Below, one piece after another: positions 1,395 through 39,820 of a DNA stretch of 64,000 nt. Under the pieces are notes generated by a model. It worked only from the letters and a program-made list of their open reading frames with translations, was not told where the DNA came from and did no database searches. The translations under genes and the position numbers were made by a program. This DNA comes from Alcanivorax sp. (GTDB lineage: Bacteria; Pseudomonadota; Gammaproteobacteria; Pseudomonadales; Alcanivoracaceae): contig JAKUPL010000007.1 of NCBI GenBank assembly GCA_022449455.1, forward strand, positions 62,001 through 126,000, given 5' to 3'. How positions within the stretch are numbered: the stretch's first letter is position 1; every line of letters starts with the position of its first letter.

Positions 1395-2039
1395 ATGAAG
1401 GCCGCGATCATCGTGGAAGATCATGACGATACCAGGGAATGGATGACGACCCTTCTGGGCGATGCCTTTCCGAATATCAGCGTGACCACCGCCAGTACGG
1501 TCGCTGGCGGGCTGGCTGCCTTGCAAAAGGACACCTTCAGCCTTGCCTTGTTGGACATCAGCCTTCCGGATGGCAATGGCGTGACTCTGGTTGAGTGGTT
1601 GCGCCATCGCGCCCCTGATACTTATATCGTGATGGCCACGATCTTCGACGACGACGATCATCTGTTTACCGCCTTGCGCGCCGGTGCCCATGGTTACCTT
1701 CTCAAGGACCAGCCCCGGGAAAGGCTGATCGAGCAGTTGTGCGGGATTCTGCGTGGTGAGCCGCCGCTCTCCGCCAGCATTGCCCGTCGCATGATGCGGC
1801 ATTTTCGCCAGAGTCATGAGCCCGAACGCGACGATACGTTGCTCACCGAGCGGGAGCGTGAAGTGCTTGGATTGCTGGCGCGGGGTTTCACTCGCACGGA
1901 TATTTCCGCCGCCCTGGGTATCGCCGCCAATACCGTCGCCACCTATACCAAGAGTATCTACCGAAAGCTGGGGGTGTCCGGCCGGGCCGAGGCGGCGCTG
2001 GAGGCCGTGCGTTTGGGGGTGGTAAGACGGGATGGCTGA
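1395..2039 (+). CDS. NarL/FixJ-type response regulator (REC + LuxR HTH)
   Basis: This 214-residue protein has an N-terminal receiver domain (about 1-120) with the acidic pocket at E8/D9 and the phosphorylatable Asp at D54 in LLDISLPDGNG. The C-terminal LuxR helix-turn-helix (about 148-210) contains LTEREREVLGLLARG and NTVATYTKSIYRKLGV. It should bind DNA when phosphorylated by the kinase encoded 18 bases downstream. ATG 1395 was chosen because the REC domain begins there and GGAGAGG lies just upstream; the frame is open back to 1281 without domain content. Likely targets, by position only, are its own promoter and the lipoprotein operon at 4371. Confidence 0.9.
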   Translation: MKAAIIVEDHDDTREWMTTLLGDAFPNISVTTASTVAGGLAALQKDTFSLALLDISLPDGNGVTLVEWLRHRAPDTYIVMATIFDDDDHLFTALRAGAHGYLLKDQPRERLIEQLCGILRGEPPLSASIARRMMRHFRQSHEPERDDTLLTEREREVLGLLARGFTRTDISAALGIAANTVATYTKSIYRKLGVSGRAEAALEAVRLGVVRRDG

Positions 2040-20649: not shown

Positions 20650-20672
20650 GTAGGAGCGGCTTCAGCCGCGAT
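20650..20672. repeat. REP-like palindrome
   Basis: GTAGGAGCGGCTTCAGCCGCGAT is the Pseudomonas-type REP: a GTAGGAGC head and the hairpin GCGGCTtcAGCCGC. It lies between the operator and the pucG start. Related copies are at 23203, 24098 and 24155. Confidence 0.7.
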
Positions 20673-20696
20673 GCCGTTACCGCCACAGAGGACGCC

Positions 20697-21947
20697 ATGC
20701 TGGACATCAACCAGTTCGACCAGATCAACCCACCGGCCCGTCTGCTGATGGGGCCCGGCCCGATCAACGCGGACCCCCGGGTGCTGCGTGCCATGGCCGC
20801 CCAGCTGGTGGGCCAGTACGACCCGTCCATGACCGGCTACATGAACGAGGTGATGGCGCTCTACCGGGCCCTGTTCCGCACCGATAACCGCTGGACCATG
20901 CTGGTGGACGGCACCTCCCGGGCCGGCATCGAGGCGATTCTGGTGTCGGCGATCCGCCCCGGTGACCGGGTGCTGGTGCCGGTGTTCGGGCGCTTCGGCC
21001 ATCTGCTCTGCGAGATCGCCCGCCGCTGCCGGGCGGAGGTGCACAGCATCGAGGTGCCCTGGGGGGAGGTGTTTGAACCCCAGGCCATCGAGGACGCCAT
21101 CAGGCGCGTCAAACCCCGCCTGCTGCTCACCGTGCAGGGCGATACCTCCACCGGCCAGTTGCAACCGCTGGCGGAGCTGGGCGACATCTGCCGCCGCCAC
21201 GGCGTGCTGTTCTACACCGACGCCACCGCCTCCTTCGGCGGCAATACTCTGGAAACCGACGCCTGGGGCCTGGACGCGGTGTCCGCCGGCCTGCAGAAGT
21301 GCCTGGGCGGCCCGTCCGGCAGCGCCCCGGTTACCCTGGGCCCGAACATGGAAGAAGTGATCCGTCGTCGCCAGCACGTGGAGGAGGGTATTCGCACCGA
21401 GGCCCACCGGGACGGTGACGACGAGCGGGTCGCCTCCAACTATTTCGACCTGGGCATGGTGATGGACTACTGGGGCCCGGAACGCCTCAACCACCACACC
21501 GAGGCCACCAGCATGCTGTTCGCCGCCCGCGAATGCGCCCGGTTGATCCTTCAGGAAGGCCTGGACCAGACCATCGCCCGCCACGCTCTGCACGGCACCG
21601 CCTTGCTGCGGGGAATTCAGGGAATGGGCCTGGAGACCTTCGGCGACCTGGAACACAAGATGAACAACGTGCTGTGCGTCAGGATCCCCGACGGCATCCC
21701 CGGCGAGCCGGTGCGCGGCCTGCTGCTCAACGACTTCGGCATCGAAATCGGCACCTCCTTCGGCCCCTTGCAGGGCAAGATCTGGCGCATCGGCACCATG
21801 GGCTACAACGCCCGTAAGGACTGCGTGTTGCAGACGCTCACCGCCCTGGAAGCGGTGCTGCGGCGCCTTGGCTTCCGCACCGCCGACGGCGGCGGTGCCC
21901 AGGCCGCCTGGGACTACTACGACCAGCAAGCGGCGGACGCCTCATGA
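20697..21947 (+). CDS. pucG: PucG-like (S)-ureidoglycine-glyoxylate aminotransferase
   Basis: This 416-residue class V aminotransferase has the PLP lysine at K201 in SAGLQKCLGGPSGSAP. The N-terminal RLLMGPGPINADPRVL, the VDGTSRAGIEA segment and the YTDATASFGG metal/PLP-binding strand are also present. Sequence and length match PucG, which transfers the amino group of ureidoglycine to glyoxylate, giving oxalurate and glycine in purine nitrogen salvage. A general serine/alanine-glyoxylate aminotransferase is the alternative. The downstream allantoate amidohydrolase, coupled by ATGA at 21944-21947, makes the ureide role likely. The upstream RpiR site suggests induced expression. Confidence 0.85.
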   Translation: MLDINQFDQINPPARLLMGPGPINADPRVLRAMAAQLVGQYDPSMTGYMNEVMALYRALFRTDNRWTMLVDGTSRAGIEAILVSAIRPGDRVLVPVFGRFGHLLCEIARRCRAEVHSIEVPWGEVFEPQAIEDAIRRVKPRLLLTVQGDTSTGQLQPLAELGDICRRHGVLFYTDATASFGGNTLETDAWGLDAVSAGLQKCLGGPSGSAPVTLGPNMEEVIRRRQHVEEGIRTEAHRDGDDERVASNYFDLGMVMDYWGPERLNHHTEATSMLFAARECARLILQEGLDQTIARHALHGTALLRGIQGMGLETFGDLEHKMNNVLCVRIPDGIPGEPVRGLLLNDFGIEIGTSFGPLQGKIWRIGTMGYNARKDCVLQTLTALEAVLRRLGFRTADGGGAQAAWDYYDQQAADAS

Positions 21948-23206
21948 CCGCGGCCGCCATGACCCCGGACCAGGCCCGCGCCGCCGCCGAGAGGGTAATG
22001 GCCCGCTGTGACCAGCTGGCCGCCATCAGCGAAACCCCGGACGCGCTCACCCGCGTCTATCTGTCGCCGGAGCACAAGCGCGCCAACGCCCTCGCCGGGG
22101 ATTGGATGCGCCAGGCGGGCATGACCGTCCACCAGGACGGCGCCGGCAATATCTGCGGCCGCTATGAAGGCGCCACGGCGGGCGCACGGGCCCTGCTGCT
22201 GGGCTCGCACCTGGACTCGGTCCGCGACGCCGGCCGCTACGACGGCCCGCTCGGCGTGCTCACCGCCATTGAAACCGTGCACCACCTGCACCGGCAAAAT
22301 GTCCGCCTGCCGCTGGCCATCGAGGTGGTGGGGTTCGGCGACGAGGAGGGCGTCCGCTTCGGCATTACCCTGTTGGGCAGCCGGGCCCTGGCCGGCACCT
22401 GGCCGCAAGGCTGGCTGGACCAGGAGGACGGCCAGGGCATCCGCCTCGCCGACGCCCTGCGCGAGTTCGGCCTGGACCCGCACCGGGTGGCGGACGCCGC
22501 CCGCCCGGTGGACGACATCGCCGCCTACCTGGAACTGCACATCGAGCAGGGCCCCTGCCTGGAGCAGGCCGACCGGGCCCTGGGCGTGGTCACCGCCATC
22601 AACGGCGCGCGCCGGCTGAACTGCACGTTCACCGGGCAGGCCGGCCACGCCGGCACCGTGCCCATGGGCCAGCGCCGCGACGCCCTGGCCGGCGCCGCCG
22701 AATGGATGACGGAAATTGAACAGGTCACGCGCCAAGCCGGCCCGGACCTGGTGGCCACCGTGGGTGCGCTGCAATGCCGGCCGGGGGCGGTGAACGTGAT
22801 TCCCGGCCAGGCGCGTCTGACCCTGGACATTCGTGGCCCGGAGGAAGAGCCGCTGGAAACCCTGCTCGACGACCTGCTGGCCCGCGCCCGCGCCATCGCC
22901 GAACGCCGCCAGCTGACCTTCGACGCGGACGAGTTCTACCGCATCGCCGCCACCGCCTGCGACACCGGCCTGCAACACCACCTGGCCGAGGCCGTTTCGG
23001 CCGTGCAGGGCCACGCCCCGCACCTGCCCAGCGGCGCCGGCCACGACGCCATCGCCCTGGCCGACCACTGGCCGGTGGCCATGCTGTTCGTGCGCTGCAA
23101 GGGCGGGATCAGCCACCATCCTGGGGAATCGGTCACCACGGACGATGTGGCGTTGGCGGTTCAGGCCTACGCCCGGGCAGTGGCCGACATCGGTAATAAA
23201 CGGTAG
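21944..23206 (+). CDS. allC: Allantoate amidohydrolase (M20-type Zn/Mn carbamoylase)
   Basis: This 420-residue enzyme belongs to the hydantoinase/carbamoylase group of the M20 metallopeptidase fold. Metal ligands are visible at H89 in GSHLDSV, D100 in RYDGPLG, E134/E135 in GDEEGVRFG, the histidine of LHIEQGPCLE, and the late histidine pair in ISHHPGES. It should hydrolyse allantoate to ureidoglycine, ammonia and CO2, feeding the aminotransferase encoded just upstream. N-carbamoyl-amino-acid hydrolase is the alternative. The start overlaps the pucG stop (ATGA). A REP sequence begins at its stop codon. Confidence 0.87.
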   Translation: MTAAAMTPDQARAAAERVMARCDQLAAISETPDALTRVYLSPEHKRANALAGDWMRQAGMTVHQDGAGNICGRYEGATAGARALLLGSHLDSVRDAGRYDGPLGVLTAIETVHHLHRQNVRLPLAIEVVGFGDEEGVRFGITLLGSRALAGTWPQGWLDQEDGQGIRLADALREFGLDPHRVADAARPVDDIAAYLELHIEQGPCLEQADRALGVVTAINGARRLNCTFTGQAGHAGTVPMGQRRDALAGAAEWMTEIEQVTRQAGPDLVATVGALQCRPGAVNVIPGQARLTLDIRGPEEEPLETLLDDLLARARAIAERRQLTFDADEFYRIAATACDTGLQHHLAEAVSAVQGHAPHLPSGAGHDAIALADHWPVAMLFVRCKGGISHHPGESVTTDDVALAVQAYARAVADIGNKR

Positions 23207-23227
23207 GAGCGGCCCTCGGGCCGCGAT
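23203..23227. repeat. REP-like palindrome overlapping the allC stop
   Basis: GTAGGAGCGGCCCTCGGGCCGCGAT has the same head as the REP at 20650 and a longer GCGGCCC/GGGCCGC hairpin. The gene's TAG is part of the REP head (GTAG), so the repeat adjoins the coding end and could act in terminating or stabilising the mRNA. Confidence 0.65.
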
Positions 23228-23260
23228 GCAAAGATGGGTGGGGCATTGCGCCCCACCTGA

Positions 23261-23956
23261 TCAGGCCACGTCCACCAGCACCACTTCGCTATCGGCCTCG
23301 GCGCTGACCACCAGCGTGGTCTCATCCTCGATGGCCAGGCCATCACCGGCTTCGGCCAGCACACCGTTGACCCGCACGCGCCCCTTGGCCGGCACCAGAT
23401 AGGCCTTGCGGCCCGGCGCCAGCGCATAGGTGGCCTCCTGCCCGGCGCCCAGCGCCGCCGCCGCCACCCGGCCGTCCGCCTGGATCGGCAGGGCGTCGCC
23501 GTCGTCGTAGCCGCTGGCCAGTACCTTGAAGCCACCGTCCCGGCCCGCTTTAGGAAAAGGCCGGCTGCCCCAGGTGGGTGGCAACCCGGTGGCGTTGGGG
23601 ATAATCCAGATCTGGAAAATCCGCGTCGGCGTGTCCTCCCGGTTGTACTCGCTGTGCGTGATCCCGGTGCCCGCGGACATCACCTGCACATCGCCGGCCT
23701 CGGTACGGCCTTTATTACCCAGGTTGTCCTGGTGAGTGATCGCTCCCTCACGCACATAGGTGATGATCTCCATATCGCGATGGGAATGCGGCGCGAACCC
23801 GGTCTGCGGCGCGATGGTGTCATCGTTCCAGACTCGCAGATCGCCCCAATGCATTCGTTTCGCATCGTGGTAGCCGGCGAAGGAAAAGTGATGTTTGGTG
23901 TCCAGCCAGCCGTGGTTGGCACCGCCCAGTTGGTTGAATTGACGCAGCTCGATCAT
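23261..23956 (-). CDS. Pirin-family protein (quercetinase-like bicupin)
   Basis: This 231-residue protein is a YhhW-type pirin with two cupin folds. Metal ligands of the N-terminal cupin are in place: H57 and H59 in FAPHSHRDMEI, then H101 and E103 in GTGITHSEYN. Such proteins are cytoplasmic. Some show quercetin 2,3-dioxygenase activity and others regulate enzymes such as pyruvate dehydrogenase. No target is suggested by the neighbours: it faces away from the NERD-helicase gene and converges on the ureide operon. Confidence 0.9.
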   Translation of the reverse strand: MIELRQFNQLGGANHGWLDTKHHFSFAGYHDAKRMHWGDLRVWNDDTIAPQTGFAPHSHRDMEIITYVREGAITHQDNLGNKGRTEAGDVQVMSAGTGITHSEYNREDTPTRIFQIWIIPNATGLPPTWGSRPFPKAGRDGGFKVLASGYDDGDALPIQADGRVAAAALGAGQEATYALAPGRKAYLVPAKGRVRVNGVLAEAGDGLAIEDETTLVVSAEADSEVVLVDVA

Positions 23957-24097
23957 GGTTGCCTCCGTGGGCCGAACCCGAATGCCCGGCCATTGATGAG
24001 GTCTACTGTATAATCAGATCGAGAGATAAAAAACGGGCCTGATTGCCGAATAGCAATCGAATTCCCTGATGTTTTATCCGGGGCTGGCTGTGGGCGT

Positions 24098-24122
24098 GTG
24101 GGAGCGGACGTCCGGCCGCGAA
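24098..24122. repeat. REP-like palindrome (diverged)
   Basis: GTGGGAGCGGACGTCCGGCCGCGAA keeps the GGAGCGG head and CCGCGAA tail of the REP family with a changed centre. It lies in the same orientation as the copy at 24155, 57 bases away. Confidence 0.5.
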
Positions 24123-24154
24123 ATCGTTTGTCGAGCCCACCCCCAATCCTCCTT

Positions 24155-24177
24155 GTAGGAGCGGTTTCAACCGCGAA
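24155..24177. repeat. REP-like palindrome
   Basis: GTAGGAGCGGTTTCAACCGCGAA is a full REP with hairpin GCGGTTtcAACCGC, close to the copy at 20650. Confidence 0.65.
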
Positions 24178-32124: not shown

Positions 32125-33828
32125 ATGACCGTAAGTTCGTACCCCCGTATTCGCCGCCGCCCGCCGGTGTCCGTGGACTGGCCGGGCGTGCCGCCGCTGC
32201 TGGCGCGCATTCTCGCCGGCCGCGGGCTCACCGCCGCGGATCAGTTGGAGCTGACCCTGGGGCGGCTGCCGCATCCGGACCACTTCCAGGGGCTGGCGGC
32301 GGCGGTGGCACTGCTGGTGACCGCCCGCGAGCAGCATTGGCGTATCTGCATCGTCGGTGATTATGACGCCGACGGCGCCACCGCCACCGCGCTGATGGTG
32401 CGCGGGCTGCAGGCACTGGGCTTCCCCCGTCCGGATTTTCTGGTGCCCAACCGGTTCGAGTACGGCTACGGCCTGTCGCCGGCCATCGTCGAGCTGGCAC
32501 GGGTGTCGTTCGAGCCGGACCTGATCATCACCGTGGACAACGGCATCGCCAGCGTGGACGGCGTGGCCGCCGCGCGGGCGGCCGGCATGCGCGTGCTGAT
32601 CACCGACCACCACTTGCCCGGCGAGCACCTGCCGGAGGCGGACGCCATCGCCAATCCACGGTTGGAGGGCGACGAATTCCCCGCCGCCAACCTGGCCGGC
32701 GTGGGCGTGGCCTTCTATCTGCTGATGGCGGTGCAGCGGCGGCTGGGCCTGAAAGGCGCGGTGGTGGATCTGCTCGACCTGGTGGCCTTGGGCACGGTGG
32801 CGGACGTGGTGCGCCTGGACGACGCCAACCGCATCCTGGTGGAGCAGGGGCTGCGGCGGCTGCGCGCCGGCAAGGGCAACCCGGGCATCCGTGCGCTGCT
32901 GCAGGTGGCCGGGCGCGACCCGTCGCGGGCGCTGGCGGCGGATCTGGGGTTCGCGGTGGGACCGCGGCTCAACGCCGCCGGGCGGCTGGCGGACATGTCC
33001 CATGGCATCGACTGCCTGTTGGCGGACAGCGTTTCCGAGGCGCGTCAGTACGCCGAGGAGCTGGACGGCATCAACCGGGAGCGGCGCGGCATCGAGCAGG
33101 GCATGCGCGACGCCGCCATGGCGGAGGTGGCGCGGCTGCGCGAGCAGACATTGCCGGCGGCGCTGTGCCTGCACGGCCGGGACTGGCACGAAGGGGTGGT
33201 GGGAATTCTGGCGTCGCGGGTCAAGGAAGCGGTGCATCGGCCGGTGATCGCCTTCGCCCCGGCCCAGGAGGCCGGGCTGCTGAAAGGCTCCGGGCGCTCG
33301 ATACCAGGGCTGCATTTGCGCGACGTGCTGGACGCGGTGGCCACCCGTCATCCAGAGATGCTGCACAAGTTCGGCGGCCATGCCATGGCCGCCGGCATGA
33401 CCCTGAAGGCGGCGGACCTGGAGGCGTTTCGCGAGGCCTTTCAGAAGGCGGTGAGCGAGGCGGCCAGCGATGATCTGTTCGACCCGGTGGTGGACAGCGA
33501 CGGCGGCCTGGACGATCGCGACATCTGCCTGGCCACCGCCGAGCTGCTGTCCCACCGGTTCCCCTGGGGGCAGGGCTTTCCGCCGCCCCGTTTCGACGGC
33601 GAATTCGAGGTGCTCAACCACCGGGTGGTGGGCGAACGCCACCTGAAGCTGACCCTGGGCCTGCCGGCGGTGAGCGGCGTGGTGGACGGCATCCTGTTCA
33701 ACGCCGACCCGGCCCTGCTGGGCGCCCGCCTCAAGCGCGTGGAGGGCGTCTACCGCCTGGAGGTCAACGAATTCCGCGGCCGCCGCGCCCCCCAAATGCT
33801 CTTCGAACACCTCCGCCCACTCCCCTGA
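32125..33828 (+). CDS. recJ: Single-stranded-DNA exonuclease RecJ
   Basis: This 567-residue cytoplasmic 5'-3' exonuclease acts in RecF-pathway recombination and mismatch repair. The DHH catalytic motifs are clear: VGDYDADGATATAL (about 75-90), TVDNGIAS, ITDHHLPGE, and the DHHA1 part with KFGGHAMAAGMTL (about 410-425). I chose ATG 32125 since it gives the usual N-terminus (RRRPPVSVDWPGVPPLL); an in-frame upstream start at 32095 would only add ten residues. The stop TGA (33826-33828) is immediately followed by the transposase element. Confidence 0.94.
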   Translation: MTVSSYPRIRRRPPVSVDWPGVPPLLARILAGRGLTAADQLELTLGRLPHPDHFQGLAAAVALLVTAREQHWRICIVGDYDADGATATALMVRGLQALGFPRPDFLVPNRFEYGYGLSPAIVELARVSFEPDLIITVDNGIASVDGVAAARAAGMRVLITDHHLPGEHLPEADAIANPRLEGDEFPAANLAGVGVAFYLLMAVQRRLGLKGAVVDLLDLVALGTVADVVRLDDANRILVEQGLRRLRAGKGNPGIRALLQVAGRDPSRALAADLGFAVGPRLNAAGRLADMSHGIDCLLADSVSEARQYAEELDGINRERRGIEQGMRDAAMAEVARLREQTLPAALCLHGRDWHEGVVGILASRVKEAVHRPVIAFAPAQEAGLLKGSGRSIPGLHLRDVLDAVATRHPEMLHKFGGHAMAAGMTLKAADLEAFREAFQKAVSEAASDDLFDPVVDSDGGLDDRDICLATAELLSHRFPWGQGFPPPRFDGEFEVLNHRVVGERHLKLTLGLPAVSGVVDGILFNADPALLGARLKRVEGVYRLEVNEFRGRRAPQMLFEHLRPLP

Positions 33829-34768
33829 CGGGGTCGGACCACCATAACCCCTTGTTTCTGCTATAAAAAACTATCCCGAAGAGCGCCATCAGGCGCTTGA
33901 AGGGCTCTTTTCGGTGGTCAAATAGGGCAGATAAGCCTCCGGCTCGTCGCGCAGATGGCAAGTCTGGCCGGCGGTTTCGATCGGCCGGTTCCTGGCAATC
34001 GGGCCCTGGGCGTCCCGAAACTGCTCCACGAAGTCCCGGCTGCCCACGGCCAGCGCTTCGGTCCAGGCCGGATCACGCCCGTGGTCGCCCCTTTCCAGGG
34101 CTTCCTCCACCCAGTCCCGGTGTGCTCGGCGCAGCACTCCCAGGTCGGAGATGCCGAGCACGTTCATCAGTGCCCCGGTGTTGATGATGCGGTAGCGGGA
34201 GCGCGGCAGCTGGATTTCCTTGTAGCCACAGGTATCCCATTCGCGAGGGTGTCGCACCCGGCCGGCGCGGACCATATTGAGGTCGATGTACACCAGGCAG
34301 CGGCGCAAATGTTCGCCGGTCTCCACGGCGGTGGCGTGGTAGCGACCCTCCCAGAACGCCCCGCGGCGACGCCGGCGGCCATTGAAATGCTGGGCGGTCC
34401 GTCCGGCCACCAGTTGAATGGAGCGCCGGATCTCGTCATCGCCCTGGTCGTGGACCAGAAGGTGCACATGATTGCTGGTGGCGATGTAATTGAGAATCCG
34501 CAGACCGTAGCGGTGCCGCGCTTCGTACAGCCAGCGCTCCCACAGGCGGCGGTCGTGTTTGAATTTGAGCAAAAAGGTCTGATCGTGGCAGCGATGGGTA
34601 ATGTGCCAGACATGACCCGACGTGTAATGACGGTTGGCGCGAGGCATCCGTTCCTCCTTTCTTTATGCTGATTTTTGACTAGTAAAAACCATGCACTAAG
34701 CGCGGACTGGGCCCTGTTTCACAAAAAAAGACATCCGATATCAGTGAGTTGCCGCGGTCCGACCCCGA
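33829..34768. mobile_element. REP-associated tyrosine transposase element with inverted ends
   Basis: The left end CGGGGTCGGACC (33829-33840) lies directly after the recJ stop. The right end GGTCCGACCCCG (34757-34768) is its exact inverse. The single gene inside (33889-34647, minus strand) is a Y1-type transposase. Beyond the 12-base ends, the left boundary continues as ACCATAACCCCTTGTTT, a sequence repeated almost exactly at 39550, where no transposase is present. The region 34648-34756 between the gene and the right end has no ORF. The boundaries are inferred from symmetry. Confidence 0.7.
33889..34647 (-). CDS. REP-associated tyrosine transposase (RAYT, Y1_Tnp)
   Basis: This 252-residue member of the TnpA_REP/IS200-like HUH family has its metal-binding HxH at H60/H62 in SNHVHLLV and the catalytic tyrosine at Y120 in RCLVYIDLNMVRAG. 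The N-terminal HITHRCHDQTFLLKF is typical. Such single-copy domesticated transposases bind and cut REP hairpins. AGGAGG precedes the ATG at 34647. A hairpin AGCGCC-atca-GGCGCT (33882-33897) spans its stop and may end the transcript. All catalytic residues are intact. Confidence 0.92.
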   Translation of the reverse strand: MPRANRHYTSGHVWHITHRCHDQTFLLKFKHDRRLWERWLYEARHRYGLRILNYIATSNHVHLLVHDQGDDEIRRSIQLVAGRTAQHFNGRRRRRGAFWEGRYHATAVETGEHLRRCLVYIDLNMVRAGRVRHPREWDTCGYKEIQLPRSRYRIINTGALMNVLGISDLGVLRRAHRDWVEEALERGDHGRDPAWTEALAVGSRDFVEQFRDAQGPIARNRPIETAGQTCHLRDEPEAYLPYLTTEKSPSSA

Positions 34769-34806
34769 GGGCGCGGTTGATGTAGGTCAAGAGAGAAGAT
34801 AGAATT

Positions 34807-34825
34807 ATGAATAATAATTATTTGC
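34807..34825 (+). promoter_or_regulatory. Fur-box-like site
   Basis: Around A34816 the sequence AATAAT-A-ATTATT (34810-34822) is a perfect palindrome. It matches the core of the 19-base Fur consensus at 11 of 13 positions. It lies 42 bases before the receptor start, so iron-dependent repression of the siderophore operon is likely. Confidence 0.6.
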
Positions 34826-34867
34826 AAATGCAATTGTGTCTTTTTCTCTTTGATCAAGGGTCGCGAC

Positions 34868-37366
34868 ATGTTTGTGAAGGGTGTTTTTACGGCGCTCCCC
34901 GGAGCGTTGTGTTTGTCGTTGCTTTGCCAGTTCGGGTTGGTGTCGGGTGCGTTGGCACAGACCGCCACCAGTTACAGCCATCAACATCAGCGCGTGCGTG
35001 TTGCGCTGCCGGCGCAAAGCCTGGGGCGGTCACTGGCCGCGTTGTCGAGGCAGACCGGTACCGCGATTCAGTATTCATCGTCGGTGGGGGAGCGTACCGG
35101 CAACGCGGTGAACGGCACCTTGCCGTTGGAACAGGTGCTCAGCACGCTGCTGGCCGGCACCGGTCTGAGTTATCGCTTCAATGCCGAGGGCGTGGAAATC
35201 GATGCCGCCGACGAAACCCACACCATTGAAGCGGTGCAGGTGAACGCCGGCACGGGCCTGGAAGAGTACGCCTGGGGCGCGGCCAGCCAGGGCTACATCG
35301 CCACGCACAGCGCGTCCGCCACCAAGACCGACGCGGCCGTGATCGAGGTGCCGCAATCCGTGTCGGTGGTGACCCGCCAGGAGATGGACGATCGCGGCGC
35401 CGATAGCGTGATGGACGCGGTGCGCTACACCGCCGGTGTCAGCACCGAGATGGAAGGCATCGACAGCCGTGTGGACGACATCTACATTCGCGGCTTCAGT
35501 GCCGGCAGCTGGTCCAACAACATGTACCTGGACGGCCTGCGCATGCCCAAGGGCGGGCAGTGGACCACGCCACAGGTTGACGCTTACGGGCTGGAGCGGG
35601 TGGAGATCGTCAAGGGGCCCGCGGCGGTGCTGTACGGCCAGGTGGCGCCCGGCGGGCTCGTCAACATGGTGGCCAAACGGCCGTCCTTCGACCATCGCAA
35701 TGAGGTGGTGCTGACCCGTGGCAGTTTTGATCAGACCGAAGGGGCTTTCGATCTGGGCGCACCGCTGGATGAAGCCGGCAATTGGCTCGGCCGGCTGGTC
35801 GGCAGCTATAACGACGGCGACTCCCAGGTGGACGAGACGGAACTGAGCCGCACCTATCTGGCGCCCAGTGTTACCTGGTTCCCCTCCGACAACACCGAGA
35901 TCACTTTCCTCAGCTATTACCAAAAGGACGACGGCGGTTCCACGTTCCAGTTTTTGCCCCTGAAGGGGCTGCTGTATCCGGCCCTGGGGGGCTACATCGA
36001 CCGCGATACGTTCCTCGGCGAACCGGATTGGAATGTCTACGAGCGGGAGCAATGGGCGCTCGGCTACGATCTCAATCACCGGTTCAATGACGTTTGGTCG
36101 TTCCGCCAGAACGCCAAATACAATCATGTGGACTCGTTATTCAAAACCGTGGTGTCCGCCACCTTCACCAACGGTGGGCTCAATGCGGATAACCGCACCA
36201 TCAACCGCCGGGGTGTGAAAGGCGAGGGCGATCTGGACAGCTATGCGCTGGACAACCAGTTCATCGCCGACTTCGATACCGGCGAGATTCGGCATAACAC
36301 CATCATCGGCGTGGACTACCTGCATACCGACTGGACCCACGCGCGATATGGCGTCACCGCCCCGATCACGCCCATCGACGTCTTCGACCCGGTGTATGGC
36401 GGCGCCGCCGGCTTCGGGGACAACATGGTCACGCAAAGTGATTACGATGTGTCCGAACGGCAGACCGGTCTTTATTTGCAGGATCTGATGTCCTGGGGCA
36501 ACTGGCACATCACCGCCGGCCTACGGCAGGATTTCTACGACAACACCAACCTGGAGCGTGCCTCCGGGGATAACGCCGACACCGACGATCACGCCCTGAC
36601 CTGGCGCCTGGGCGGTGTGTATGAATTCGCCAACGGGGTGGCCCCTTACGCCAGCTACGCCACCTCGTTCGAGCCGTTGAGCGGTTTCAACTCCACCGGC
36701 GGTGCGTTCGAGCCGTCCGAAGGCAAGCAATATGAACTGGGCGTGAAATATCAGCCGCCGCGCAGCAACACGCTGCTGACGCTGTCCGCGTTCGACCTGC
36801 GGCAGACCAATCTGGCGGCGCAGGATCTCAACCCGCCGAACGGCGCCACCTGCATCGACGACAGTACGCCGGGCCAGCCGGACATCAGCGCGTGCCAGCG
36901 TCAGACCGGTGAAACCCGTACCCGCGGCGTGGAGCTGGAAGCCAAAATGTGGCAACGCGAAGGCGCCAGCGTCACCGCCAGCTACACGCTGCTGGACACC
37001 GAGGTTGACGACACCAACGCCAGTGTCGACGGCAACGAAAAGCCCTATGCGCCGCGCAACATGGCCGCCCTCTGGGTGGACTACAAATGGCGTCAGGGAG
37101 TGCTGGCCGGTCTCGGGCTGGGCGTGGGTGCCCGTTACACCGACCGTGTTTACGGCGACGATGAGAATCAGTACGGCGTGGACAGCTACACGCTGTACGA
37201 CGCCTCGCTGCGTTACGACATGGGCGCGGTCGGCTGGCCCGGGCTGGAGCTGGCCCTGGTGGGCCGCAACCTGAAGGACGAGGAATTCCTGTCGTACTGC
37301 AATGCGTTCGGTTGCTCCTACGGTTCCGCCCGCAACGTGAGCGCCAGCGTTCAATACAGTTGGTGA
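34868..37366 (+). CDS. TonB-dependent siderophore receptor with N-terminal signalling (STN) domain
   Basis: This protein of about 832 residues has a signal peptide ending near GALAQ (about 32). A secretin/TonB short N-terminal domain follows (about 45-120, RVALPAQSLGRSLAALSRQT, VNGTLPLEQVLSTLLAGTGL), then the plug (about 140-290, VEVPQSVSVVTRQEMDDRG, YIRGFSAGS, VEIVKGPAAVLYGQVAPGG) and a barrel ending in YSW. It is of the FpvA/FoxA-like class that imports ferric hydroxamates or similar. The STN domain usually signals to an anti-sigma factor, but no FecI/FecR-like pair is in this window. Start ATG 34868 was chosen for its signal peptide. The Fur-like box lies just upstream. Confidence 0.92.
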   Translation: MFVKGVFTALPGALCLSLLCQFGLVSGALAQTATSYSHQHQRVRVALPAQSLGRSLAALSRQTGTAIQYSSSVGERTGNAVNGTLPLEQVLSTLLAGTGLSYRFNAEGVEIDAADETHTIEAVQVNAGTGLEEYAWGAASQGYIATHSASATKTDAAVIEVPQSVSVVTRQEMDDRGADSVMDAVRYTAGVSTEMEGIDSRVDDIYIRGFSAGSWSNNMYLDGLRMPKGGQWTTPQVDAYGLERVEIVKGPAAVLYGQVAPGGLVNMVAKRPSFDHRNEVVLTRGSFDQTEGAFDLGAPLDEAGNWLGRLVGSYNDGDSQVDETELSRTYLAPSVTWFPSDNTEITFLSYYQKDDGGSTFQFLPLKGLLYPALGGYIDRDTFLGEPDWNVYEREQWALGYDLNHRFNDVWSFRQNAKYNHVDSLFKTVVSATFTNGGLNADNRTINRRGVKGEGDLDSYALDNQFIADFDTGEIRHNTIIGVDYLHTDWTHARYGVTAPITPIDVFDPVYGGAAGFGDNMVTQSDYDVSERQTGLYLQDLMSWGNWHITAGLRQDFYDNTNLERASGDNADTDDHALTWRLGGVYEFANGVAPYASYATSFEPLSGFNSTGGAFEPSEGKQYELGVKYQPPRSNTLLTLSAFDLRQTNLAAQDLNPPNGATCIDDSTPGQPDISACQRQTGETRTRGVELEAKMWQREGASVTASYTLLDTEVDDTNASVDGNEKPYAPRNMAALWVDYKWRQGVLAGLGLGVGARYTDRVYGDDENQYGVDSYTLYDASLRYDMGAVGWPGLELALVGRNLKDEEFLSYCNAFGCSYGSARNVSASVQYSW

Positions 37367-37378
37367 ATGGAGAACACC

Positions 37379-37645
37379 ATGGCCATCGCAGCCTGTCTGC
37401 TGCTGAGCGTTATCGGCGTGATGTTGCTGTATCTGTGCTCGCCGAATCAGCGCTGGCGGCGCCTGCCTCTGCGCGGACGTGCCTGGCGCGTGGCGGCCTG
37501 GGCGCTGGTGGCACTGGCCTGGCCGGCCTGGATGGTCACCCTGGAGGCCAAGGCCGGTTTTTTTGCCGCGTTGACGTTGCTGATGCTGTTGGCCGGGCTG
37601 CTGCCGCTGGTATCACTGCTGAAGCTCACCCGGGCGGCGCGCTGA
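37379..37645 (+). CDS. Small membrane protein, DUF3325-like
   Basis: This 88-residue protein has three hydrophobic segments (about 3-18, 35-50, 55-78) separated by a basic loop (RWRRLPLRGRAWR). It is probably the DUF3325 protein often found in TonB receptor/PepSY operons. ATG 37379 is preferred over the ATG at 37367 because GGAG sits six bases before it. The next gene starts in its stop codon (TGATG). Role unknown, presumed to assist inner-membrane steps of iron uptake. Confidence 0.7.
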   Translation: MAIAACLLLSVIGVMLLYLCSPNQRWRRLPLRGRAWRVAAWALVALAWPAWMVTLEAKAGFFAALTLLMLLAGLLPLVSLLKLTRAAR

Positions 37646-37950
37646 TGGCCAAACCCAAACCCGCACCGATCCAACCGCACTGGTGGAGCAAGACCCTGGC
37701 CGGCGGCGTGCTCGGCTTTTCCCTGGCGATTGCGCTGTCCGGACTGTTCGCCTGGCTGGGGCCGGGTGGCATCGGCGCGCCGGACAAAGTGCAGTTCAAT
37801 ATGTGGCTGGTGCCGTTCATCTGGATGACGGTGTTTTCGCTGGTGTATCTGTTTCGTACCGGAATCCGGGCCTGGCTGTGGCTGGGGGCCGCCAACGGGC
37901 TCGCTTTTCTCGCGCTGATGCTGGCGCGCCGGGCTCTGGAAGGGGGCTGA
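37645..37950 (+). CDS. Small membrane protein, DUF3649-like
   Basis: This 101-residue protein has three hydrophobic helices (GVLGFSLAIALSGLFAWL; MWLVPFIWMTVFSLVYLF; WLGAANGLAFLALML) and an N-terminal HWW after a Lys/Pro-rich head. Position between a DUF3325-like and a PepSY gene and the length fit DUF3649 of siderophore operons. The ATG overlaps the upstream stop, and the PepSY gene begins two bases after its own stop. Confidence 0.7.
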   Translation: MAKPKPAPIQPHWWSKTLAGGVLGFSLAIALSGLFAWLGPGGIGAPDKVQFNMWLVPFIWMTVFSLVYLFRTGIRAWLWLGAANGLAFLALMLARRALEGG

Positions 37951-37951
37951 T

Positions 37952-39556
37952 GTGCGCAGCGATGTGATCCGGACCTATAAAACCCTGCATACCTGGACCG
38001 GCCTGTTGGCCGGCATGATGCTGTTCATCGGCTTTTATGCCGGTGCCCTGACCATGTTCAAGGGGCCCTTGGACCGCTGGGCGGCACCACCGCCCGCTCA
38101 GCAGGACCAAGCCTGGGTGGGGCCCGAGCGCTGGCCGGCGTTGATTGAAGCCGTGGTCCGCGCTCATCCGAGCGCGGCGGAGGGCTTCACCCTGCACCTG
38201 CGTCCGGATGAAAAAAATCCACTGCCACTGGTCTGGCAGCCGGGCGGGCGTGGCCGCGATCCCGGTGATGCCAGCTGGCGCGCCACGCTGGACGCCGAAG
38301 GCGGACTGCGTGCCGGGGCCTACCAGCCCTCGGGCATGGCGGAGCTGATCGACCTGTTGCACCAAACCGGAGGGATACCCGGTCGTGGTCATCACTATTT
38401 TGGTGTGTACGCCATGGGAGTGGTCTGTGTGCTGTATGTGCTGGCCCTGGTATCCGGTGTGATCGTGTTGCTGCCCACGCTGGTGAAGGACTTTTTCGCT
38501 CTGCGGCCCGGTAAAAATCGCAAGCGGTTCTGGCTGGATGCGCACAATGTGGTGGGCATCACCAGCCTGCCGTTCCACATCATTATTGGCGTTACGGTGA
38601 TCGTGTTCGCCTTTCACGACCAGATCTACGATAGCCTCGGCAAAGTGGTTTACGGCGACCGTCCGCTGTTTCAGGCGCCCCCCGCCGCCGGGCACGATCA
38701 GCCCCGGTCGCTGGACGGGCTGGTGCCGCCGGCCCGCTTGCTGGCAACGGTGCGTGATCACGATCCGGATTTCGAGCCCCGCGAACTGATCTATGCCGAT
38801 GTGCTCGGACCACGGGCCTCGGTGCGCATCGCCGGCGAAAAGCCGACCCACATGCTGCGCGGTGCGGACCGGGGGTTCGTGGCCGTGGATCCCTACACGG
38901 GCGCGATCACCAATACCGACTATATGCCCGGCCACGAAAACACCTGGGTGGATCTGATCACCACCTTCTTCGCGCTCCATTTCGGTAACTTCGGAGGCAC
39001 CTGGATGCGCTGGGTCTATGTGCTGCTGGGATTGGGCGGCGCGTTTCTGTTCTACAGTGGCAACCTGCTGTGGGTGGAAAGCCGCCGTCGCCGGCAACGC
39101 AAAGGCCAGGCCCCGGTCGCGCAGCGCCGCACCACCGAATGGATGGCGGCGGCCACCGTCGGAGTGTGCTGGGGCTGCGTGGCGGCGGTCTCCGCCGCCA
39201 TGGTGGCGGGCAAGTGGTTGAGTGGGTGGGTGGTGGACATCAATCCCGTCTACCTGGCGGTGTACTACACGGTGTTTCTGGGCTCCGTCGCCTGGGCCCT
39301 GTGGCGAGGCGCCGCCCGCGCGGTGGCCGGGTTGCTGAGGTTCGCGGCCCTGACCACCTTGATGATCCCGCTCACCGGCCTGTTGGCGCTGATCTGGACC
39401 ACCGGCCCGGTCTGGCTGCATACCTCGCCGGGTACCCTGGCGGTGGAAGGCAGCGCCCTGATCGGCGGCCTGCTGCTCGCCTGGACCGCCCACCGCACCG
39501 CCCGCCGCGTACACCAAGGCCCCAAAGACAGCGTCTGGGGGGTCGGACCACCGTAA
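37952..39556 (+). CDS. PepSY-domain inner-membrane protein, siderophore operon
   Basis: This 534-residue protein has helices near residues 16-37 (GLLAGMMLFIGFYAGALTMF), 150-175, 205-225, 350-370, 395-420, 435-450, 455-475 and 490-510. It carries two PepSY-type extracytoplasmic stretches (AEGFTLHLRPDEKNPLPLVW; DVLGPRASVRIAGEKPTHML). These proteins reduce or release iron from imported siderophores. Start GTG 37952; the ATG at 37950 is in another frame with no long ORF. The last codons (GVGPP) and the TAA stop are read from the left end of the GGGGTCGGACC element, so the original C-terminus was replaced. Confidence 0.85.
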   Translation: MRSDVIRTYKTLHTWTGLLAGMMLFIGFYAGALTMFKGPLDRWAAPPPAQQDQAWVGPERWPALIEAVVRAHPSAAEGFTLHLRPDEKNPLPLVWQPGGRGRDPGDASWRATLDAEGGLRAGAYQPSGMAELIDLLHQTGGIPGRGHHYFGVYAMGVVCVLYVLALVSGVIVLLPTLVKDFFALRPGKNRKRFWLDAHNVVGITSLPFHIIIGVTVIVFAFHDQIYDSLGKVVYGDRPLFQAPPAAGHDQPRSLDGLVPPARLLATVRDHDPDFEPRELIYADVLGPRASVRIAGEKPTHMLRGADRGFVAVDPYTGAITNTDYMPGHENTWVDLITTFFALHFGNFGGTWMRWVYVLLGLGGAFLFYSGNLLWVESRRRRQRKGQAPVAQRRTTEWMAAATVGVCWGCVAAVSAAMVAGKWLSGWVVDINPVYLAVYYTVFLGSVAWALWRGAARAVAGLLRFAALTTLMIPLTGLLALIWTTGPVWLHTSPGTLAVEGSALIGGLLLAWTAHRTARRVHQGPKDSVWGVGPP

Positions 39557-39820
39557 CCTCTTGTTCCGGTTAAAAAAACTTCTTCGAAACCCGTGTTTTG
39601 CGGGCTTAGGGTCGCCTTTTGGGGGGCAAAAAAGCCGGGATAAGAACCTGCTAAGCGCGAAGCGCCCGCGACCGGAGCCTTGTCCTTAACCGGTGTTTTG
39701 GTGGGTAAAAAGTGGGCGCTAACAGAATGTTGAGGACGTCTCAGTAAGTAAAGTTTTCTGTTTTCAGCGGGTTACGGCGGTCCGACCCCGATGTTGCACG
39801 GCGGTCCGACCCCGATGTTG
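39540..39820. repeat. Transposase-less relative of the RAYT element (MITE-like)
   Basis: The left end GGGGTCGGACCACCGTAACC (39540-39559) and the right end GGTTACGGCGGTCCGACCCC (39770-39789) are inverted copies with one mismatch in 20. The left boundary matches the RAYT element at 33830 over more than 30 bases. The right end occurs twice in tandem (39775-39796 and 39799-39820). Inside are possible hairpins (CCCG-tgttttg-CGGG near 39591) and no gene. The intervening sequence to 39920 also holds no gene. Confidence 0.65.

Follow-up and report, generated by a model that had tools for sequence, protein, structure and literature searches.

The window analysed here is a 64,000-nt stretch of an Alcanivorax sp. 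genome (assembly GCA_022449455.1, contig JAKUPL010000007.1; 4.22 Mb in 70 contigs, G000 below). Directly downstream of recJ it carries an ORF on the minus strand (33889..34647) for a 252-aa Y1/HUH transposase, which lies inside a 937-bp element (33830..34766) bounded by inverted GGGGTCGGACC tips. We read the two tips from the window sequence at 33830..33840 (plus strand) and 34756..34766 (minus strand). The first-pass annotation had placed the transposase gene between perfect 12-base inverted ends, and both of these, CGGGGTCGGACC and GGTCCGACCCCG, are present in the window. It had also begun the left end right after the recJ stop codon (33826-33828). This holds for the 12-base match, but the conserved 11-base tip begins one base later, so that one flank base (C) stands between the stop codon and the tip. 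Among 107 ends of this kind, defined below, base -1 outside the tip was C in 78% and T in 17%. The conserved tip is thus the inner 11 bases, GGGGTCGGACC, and the outer C/G of the 12-base ends is flank.

Each tip is accompanied on its inner side by a sequence resembling the IHF consensus: TAACCCCTTGTTT on the left (33845..33857, plus strand), with one mismatch to YAANNNNYTGATW, and CAACTCACTGATA on the right (34739..34751, minus strand), which matches YAANNNNYTGATW exactly. Tips and IHF-like sites are parts of two 106-bp arms with helically phased A/T content. The left arm (33830..33935, plus strand) has an AT power of 7.5 at 10.8 bp and the right arm (34661..34766, minus strand) one of 6.6, the latter with its end shifted by one base. 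The left-arm dyad extends into the transposase ORF at its 3′ end.

The transposase scored 34.8 bits against the Pfam family Y1_Tnp, above the cut-off, and 62.2 bits against REP_Tyr_transpos of NCBIfam, below the cut-off of 80; against NF033573 it scored 21.3 bits at a cut-off of 55. It contains the motifs NHVH (residues 59-62), WE (99-100) and, starting at Y120, YIDLNM, as well as a C-terminal helical region. Residues N59, H60, H62 and Y120 were invariant across 16 aligned transposase sequences, in which the tyrosine motif reads Y[IVM]D[LM]N[MT]. The structure predicted with this 16-sequence alignment had a mean pLDDT of 81.7. Its best structural match was the REP-associated transposase 4er8 (E-value 3.7e-7), and the IS608 and ISDra2 transposases came next. 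An extra helical region at residues 141-217 was confidently predicted, and Pfam names no HTH there.

The window element is a TIRtron with its TIRYT, a kind of element that is already known. De Nocera et al. 2013 (PMC3733652) gave such genes and elements these names, and the features they describe include a RAYT-like Y1 transposase between terminal inverted repeats and the absence of GTAG REPs, both of which apply here. The ends of the window element also belong to a genomic repeat family, as reported for some TIRtrons; TIR families are described there as moderately abundant in some microorganisms and often found as dimers. The tip GGGGTCGG is one letter off the GGGGWSAS motif of that paper, its seventh base being G, but the motif was published for some TIRs only, and it is therefore not obligatory for TIRtrons. 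In the classification of Quentin et al. 2018 (PMC6006769), 20 of 26 TIRYTs fall in subclass 2.1. The window protein has NHVH and WE as listed for that subclass, and its predicted C-terminal helical region may correspond to the HTH-like extension described for it. It differs from class 2 as given there in its tyrosine motif (YIDLNM rather than Y---NP).

A miniature relative of the element lies further along the window (39539..39789). This 251-bp element has the same tips and similar arms, and its longest closed ORF is 42 aa. Its IHF-like sites have two mismatches and one mismatch, and its AT power is 9.3 at 11.2 bp against 4.2 at 10.8 bp. Directly after it, flank and tip are repeated almost exactly in a 24-bp tandem copy (39790..39813, minus strand), which places a second tip at 39803-39813. 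In G000, about 4.8 kb (34767-39538) separate the TIRYT element from the miniature element, and this interval contains an ORF (34850-37366) that by eye is TonB-dependent receptor-like. The spacing between the two elements is 15 bp in a related genome, G004; in another, G003, the TIRYT element adjoins maeB.

The window also contains REPs of a different kind. GTAGGAGC REPs are found at 20650, 23203, 24155, 37314 and 43738, and none at the TIRYT element, which bears out the earlier view that the local REP family (20650-24177) is distinct from the element ends. Five genes in G000 matched Y1_Tnp, four of them above the cut-off. The RAYT-like gene at C23:307084 (C23:307084-307296, L053) lies just below it (21.8 bits) and is flanked on each side by GTAGGAGC REPs, oppositely oriented and inside a 22-bp inverted match. 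Two further Y1_Tnp genes on contig C28 and one on C70 had neither GTAGGAGC nor TIRYT tips in the 3.5-5.5 kb around them. The GTAGGAGC REPs thus probably have their own RAYT, the C23:307084 gene. Since that gene is flanked by GTAGGAGC, two enzyme/repeat systems coexist in this genome.

The tips of the TIRYT element recur across the genome. Exact GGGTCGGACC occurred 55 times in G000 compared with 18 times for the reversed pattern, and 13 inverted pairs of exact tips, not counting the transposase element, enclosed 215-258 bp. When counting was restricted to the window, the 10-mer, one mismatch allowed, was not over-represented (9 occurrences against 11.6 expected); the tip signal is therefore genome-wide. 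For statistics on the ends we used loci from G000, G003 and G004, and counted as real ends the 107 of 146 GGGTCGGACC occurrences that had a TTGATTT-like word, with at most two mismatches, behind the tip. Since the tip itself served to find the ends, these statistics contain too large a share of intact tips. A TTGATTT-like rule was likewise passed by 47 of 67 candidate pairs. Two of these, both from genome G007, were left out, and the remaining 45 paired elements (at most two mismatches per tip) come from G000, G003 and G004. The 251-bp element of the window fails the rule and is outside the 45, and its duplicated right end (39779/39803) likewise fails it and is outside the 22 duplicated ends reported below.

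Seven of the 45 elements were 170-181 bp long and 33 were 224-244 bp long. A quantisation of lengths in helical turns was best at 10.75-11 bp (R 0.51-0.55), but other periods reached 0.42 and orthologues are not independent, and the lengths carry no weight in the argument here. The longest closed ORF per element had a median length of 36 aa, never exceeded 64 aa and reached at least 50 aa in three elements. Between C23:220814 and 222403, the ORFs include an acyl-CoA dehydrogenase-like one (by eye), and no mobile cargo was found. The TIRYT element has both arms as in the gene-free elements, with the gene in between. Judged by sequence, the gene-free elements fit MITEs of the TIRYT element: they have the termini of a gene-bearing partner and no coding capacity.

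Enzyme and repeats occur together within the genus. The transposase is encoded in three of 13 Alloalcanivorax genomes, namely G000, G004 (92% identity) and G003 (78%), each of which has a single copy adjoining recJ. All remaining transposase matches in the genus reached at most 31% identity, save one 60-residue stretch at 35%. Named contigs identify the genus as Alloalcanivorax and the 92% and 77% relatives as A. marinus and A. gelatiniphagus. Exact GGGGTCGGACC was found 43 times in G000, 38 times in G004 and 46 times in G003, and 0-6 times in each of the other ten genomes, where the reversed tip as a control was found 6-11 times. A tip-blind profile of arm positions 13-108 (E-value 0.01, at most 150 candidates scored per genome) recovered 49 arms in G000, 45 in G004 and 37 in G003, counts that are partly by construction because the profile was trained on these three genomes. 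The same profile recovered three arms in G007 and none in the other nine genomes, a near-absence that is not by construction. We looked for the tips at 126 of 134 profile matches, one of which lay outside the fetched DNA; the eight left out were inner-only matches or lay in unfetched places. Of the 125 tips read, 105 were intact, 16 had one mismatch and four had two or three. Searching the genome and its relatives for tip-bounded segments thus yielded dozens of gene-free copies in enzyme-bearing genomes. This association across three enzyme-bearing and ten enzyme-free genomes supports the possibility, raised by the first-pass annotation, that the repeats form a family of their own served by this transposase.

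We also compared insertion sites among the genomes of the genus. The transposase is missing from G005 and G007, but their recJ-maeB spacer has diverged, and no clean empty site after recJ was found in the genus. In the neighbourhoods of recJ and of two elements (L043), flanks were diverged, deleted or rearranged, so that no exact target or target-site duplication is readable. At one orthologous site, enzyme-free G005 has an apparent remnant with a decayed tip and an intact TTGATTTATAAATG stretch. Directly downstream of recJ in G006 (L240) there is, by eye, a long tandem array with units of roughly 100 bp rich in CCCTCTCC/GGGAGAGG. Near-identical copies on contigs C5 and C52, with eight flank bases common to both, were considered as a case of recent transposition and rejected: each of the three genomes has such copies at these same two places, and they are therefore old paralogues. 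The pair lies near contig ends (the end of C5 and start of C52 in G000, the ends of C2 and C12 in G004, and the end of C41 and start of C45 in G003). Its members are alike within each genome, as if homogenised together with neighbouring DNA. Site preference at gene ends had also been suggested for the element. Of 86 element sides, 38 had a long ORF ending at most 57 nt away, and for six of these the distance was 2-3 nt; among 8000 random sides the number was 1041. Orthologous sites were counted separately. These counts weakly favour such a preference, but a bias towards intergenic DNA explains them too.

A transposase search of named genomes returned 55 loci, most of them deltaproteobacterial (Desulfobacterota) by title. 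Other hosts were Nitrospirota, Aminicenantes, unclassified Proteobacteria and single others. An order-wide search gave a match at E 1e-30 or better in three of 293 genomes, which indicates that the clade is patchy. We examined 30 of the 53 homologue loci outside Alloalcanivorax (L152-L204) by looking, within 400 bp, for the longest inverted repeat that matched exactly. In 16 of the 30, GGGTCGGACC formed an inverted repeat on both sides of the gene, and another four had tip variants, one of them GGGGTCTGACC and the other three GGGGACAGGCC. No such tip pair was seen in the other ten loci, six of which (L155, L166, L172, L174-L176) carry at least one GGGTCGGACC. Exact tips numbered 1-13 in each of twelve homologue genomes; in G305, G307, G308, G309 and G311, the exact tip was no or hardly commoner than the reversed control. 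Gene-free tip pairs with the same anatomy were found in G306, a Pseudomonadota MAG without finer classification, at about 171 bp, and twice in G310 (Syntrophaceae) at about 262 bp.

In the delta proteobacterium NaphS2 (G303:C721:9895-33126; L155, L249 and L250), eight GGGGTCGGACC in one orientation are spread over 23 kb, and most of these tips are followed by loosely similar sequence that is unlike the phased arm. Three homologues from Aminicenantes (L167, L168 and L169), about 50% identical, have GGGGACAGGCCACA tips, possibly a sister specificity.

Column statistics revealed one arm plan common to 70 Alloalcanivorax arms and 52 diverse arms from other bacteria. The latter were drawn from 82 arms, of which 63 were kept by their AA/TGA positions and then 52 by being below 80% identity. 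The tip occupies arm positions 1-11 and an IHF-consensus-like YAANNNNYTGAWW positions 16-28. These are followed by A/T blocks at about positions 38, 49, 60, 69, 80, 92 and 103, with a spacing of about 10.75 bp. A dyad with its symmetry centre at 86.5 is formed by CTTA(G) at 67, TTTT at 79-82, AAAA at 91-94 and TAAG near 103-106. The sequence between the blocks is hardly conserved, with a mean pairwise identity of 0.39 beyond position 30 (89 arms).

The published IHF consensus is TAAnnnnTTGATW, or WATCAAnnnnTTR (PMC10380432). It was matched exactly at 64 of 146 tip occurrences; within the 107 selected ends, 64 were exact and 106 had at most one mismatch, although the selection of these ends itself required the TTGATTT-like word that is part of the IHF-site region counted. 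Our scoring used Y at positions 16 and 23. Outside Alloalcanivorax the match was weaker, with nine of 52 arms exact and 33 of 52 within one mismatch. The genome has four HU/IHF-family genes.

On sequence grounds, this end anatomy is strongly supported by the copies in distant bacteria. Among the matches listed in searches of the open-access literature, we found no such ends for GGGGTCAGA, for MITE, phased or A-tract terms, or for Alcanivorax miniature elements, and no paper on transposons, by title, for GGGTCGGACC. The arm of about 106 bp with its phasing, the IHF-like site, the dyad and the tip duplications described below appear to be new, as we did not find them described in the available portions of De Nocera et al. 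2013 and Quentin et al. 2018.

The base composition of the elements is helically phased. AT power near 10.8 bp averaged 13.4 in the 45 elements and 12.8 without both end 30-mers, compared with 2.1 after shuffling and 1.86 in 2000 control 227-mers, and 43 of the 45 elements were above the control 99th percentile. Element 110-mers averaged 9.0 compared with 1.9 in 80 adjacent flanks, and 71 of 90 element stretches were above the flank 95th percentile. The phase relative to the tip was the same in the two sets of arms: coherence was R=0.93 in each, at 85 degrees for the 70 from Alloalcanivorax and at 81 degrees for the 52 others, and the shuffled maxima were 0.30 and 0.31.

Short duplications were found at the tips. 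At 22 of the 107 ends, about 7 nt of flank and about 4 nt of tip are present as an exact tandem copy with a period of at least 8. At the same periods, such copies were found at five of 5000 random positions, at 0-1 of 107 positions for each of five shifts from -60 to +60, at none of 25 GTAGGAGC starts and at one of 110 sides of 55 perfect hairpins. When about one mismatch was allowed, the counts were 30 of 107 ends and 12 of 2000 controls. With periods from 5, they were 23 of 107 ends, 73 of 5000 random positions, 21 of 950 GGGG controls, four of 110 hairpin sides and two of 24 REPs. The flank parts measured 5-11 nt (7 nt in 10 of 22) and the tip parts mostly 2-6 nt (4 nt in 10 of 22). By eye, no common sequence that would mark a nick site was seen at the start of the duplicated units.

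The duplications extend to other bacteria, where they were found at nine of 110 GGGTCGGACC occurrences. In Desulfoluna limicola (L209, G307; 1458-1500, minus strand), the tip, about 30 inner bases and flank stand in tandem, with a shorter flank-plus-tip copy in addition. Read from its sequence, this array would be the duplication phenomenon in Desulfobacterota. One orthologous site, inspected by eye, has copies on both sides in G004, on the left only in G003 and none in G000, so at least some gains or losses of duplications postdate insertion. HUH enzymes leave a 3′-OH that is able to prime synthesis or to rejoin (PMC8266576). By analogy, the duplications hint at nicking, extension and religation, or at slippage.

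We consider it likely (probability about 0.7) that the window holds a TIRtron whose single TIRYT serves miniature copies in trans, with the ends wrapped as duplex. The TIRYT beside recJ, present once per genome in three related species, would serve the ends of its own element as well as the gene-free copies. The ends would work as duplex DNA. IHF or a related protein would bend them just inside the tip, and TIRYT multimers, HU/IHF or gyrase may wrap the arm along one of its faces. Such wrapping would present both tips for nicking by the tyrosine. The duplications could then be the trace of a nick just outside the tip, followed by short 3′-OH extension and religation, or else of replication slippage at the complex. 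A broader version is a tentative proposal that we rate as less likely than not: HUH/Y1 ends would here be duplex signals of about 106 bp whose information lies in helical phase more than in sequence. IHF together with a partner would wrap them into a nucleoprotein particle, a nick would fall about 7 nt outside the tip, and this phase code would have been kept across phyla.

The enzymes related to the TIRYT act on single-stranded hairpins (PMC8266576), and the structure that the predicted fold matched best, 4er8, is a REP-associated transposase bound to a REP hairpin. The enzyme might therefore read folded hairpins, as in IS200/IS605 and REP systems, with the periodicity a by-product of hairpin composition. 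Some folding data agree with this. The interiors of 20 elements folded better than mononucleotide shuffles (mean z -2.3), and arms from other bacteria were slightly in excess both in folding against column-shuffled arms (z -4.5; -2.0 in Alloalcanivorax) and in pairing at the dyad (0.375 against 0.319 in the exact register, 52 arms, z 2.6). In 57 Alloalcanivorax arms, however, positions 71-78 paired with 95-102 no more than with shuffled partners, whichever of five registers was used (z -1.2 to 0.9). The two arms of one element were no more alike than arms taken from different elements, either at positions 30-66 (0.297 against 0.319, z -1.4; 27 elements) or at 30-106 (z -1.5), while the tips were more alike within than between these elements (z 2.9). 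An RNA-like consensus fold of the arms was essentially absent, and a common phase of 10.75 bp is most simply a duplex property. On this balance we regard recognition of hairpins as unlikely. Since Alloalcanivorax arms show no conserved hairpin and those of other bacteria a weak pairing excess, the phase code seems to be chiefly a signal for duplex wrapping, perhaps with a minor contribution from single-strand structure. Such a signal is unexpected in enzymes whose known substrates are single-stranded.

Phased A/T content and IHF-like sites at both ends would also suit elements that are mainly gyrase/IHF sites, resembling BIMEs and kept by host selection, with the TIRYT acting as their spreader only. 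The E. coli gyrase motif spans 130 bp, GC content in its two 47-bp arms oscillates with a period of 10.75 bp, and gyrase cuts are drawn to BIME-2 elements (PMC6379681); an element of about 171 bp could hold one such motif around the dyad. In the same study, though, gyrase cuts were slightly under-represented at IHF sites. A comparison of phase with one known strong gyrase site, that of Mu (L149), is only suggestive: the right-arm A/T offsets are about 3.7 and about 5.1 bp if the annotated cut is taken as the top-strand cut, and the left arm of Mu does not mirror this. The co-occurrence of tip and enzyme in the genus is not needed for a host function alone, and we think it improbable that host architecture is the main role of the elements. 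For the duplications, passive replication slippage at an obstacle, in place of enzyme action, is a serious contender at somewhat less than even odds. The lack of a visible motif at the start of the duplicated units fits slippage, but the tight length of the flank part, the 4-nt peak of the tip part, the near-absence of duplications at REP starts and perfect hairpins and their presence at tips in other bacteria do not. Finally, a gene that landed by chance between two unrelated repeats is already contradicted by tips and enzyme being found together both in distant bacteria and within the genus, and we give this explanation almost no weight.

The preferred reading, a TIRYT serving miniature copies through duplex ends, sets these elements beside several known systems. 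Like REPtrons and REPINs with their RAYT (TnpA-REP), they combine a low-copy Y1 enzyme with dispersed gene-free repeats and inverted pairing of ends, but they have no GT[AG]G foot, no conserved hairpin was found in their arms, and their ends are far longer. The predicted HUH/Tyr fold is shared with IS200/IS605 elements such as IS608 and ISDra2, which have subterminal hairpins and a multicopy, near-identical transposase, whereas the elements described here have terminal inverted repeats, a single transposase copy and many miniature copies. E. coli BIMEs include IHF-containing RIB and RIP elements. Both BIMEs and the present elements are intergenic repeats with IHF-like sites and a possible link to gyrase (for BIME-2, PMC6379681), but the elements here are not made of REPs, and their sites for gyrase and IHF are putative.

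How RAYT-like enzymes maintain repeat families in genomes is an open question, and here the presence and absence of enzyme and repeats line up in one genus. The flank-plus-tip duplications would provide a sequence record of events at the tips. Their helical phasing suggests that the ends are wrapped as duplex, although the work on this family cited here uses single-stranded hairpins.
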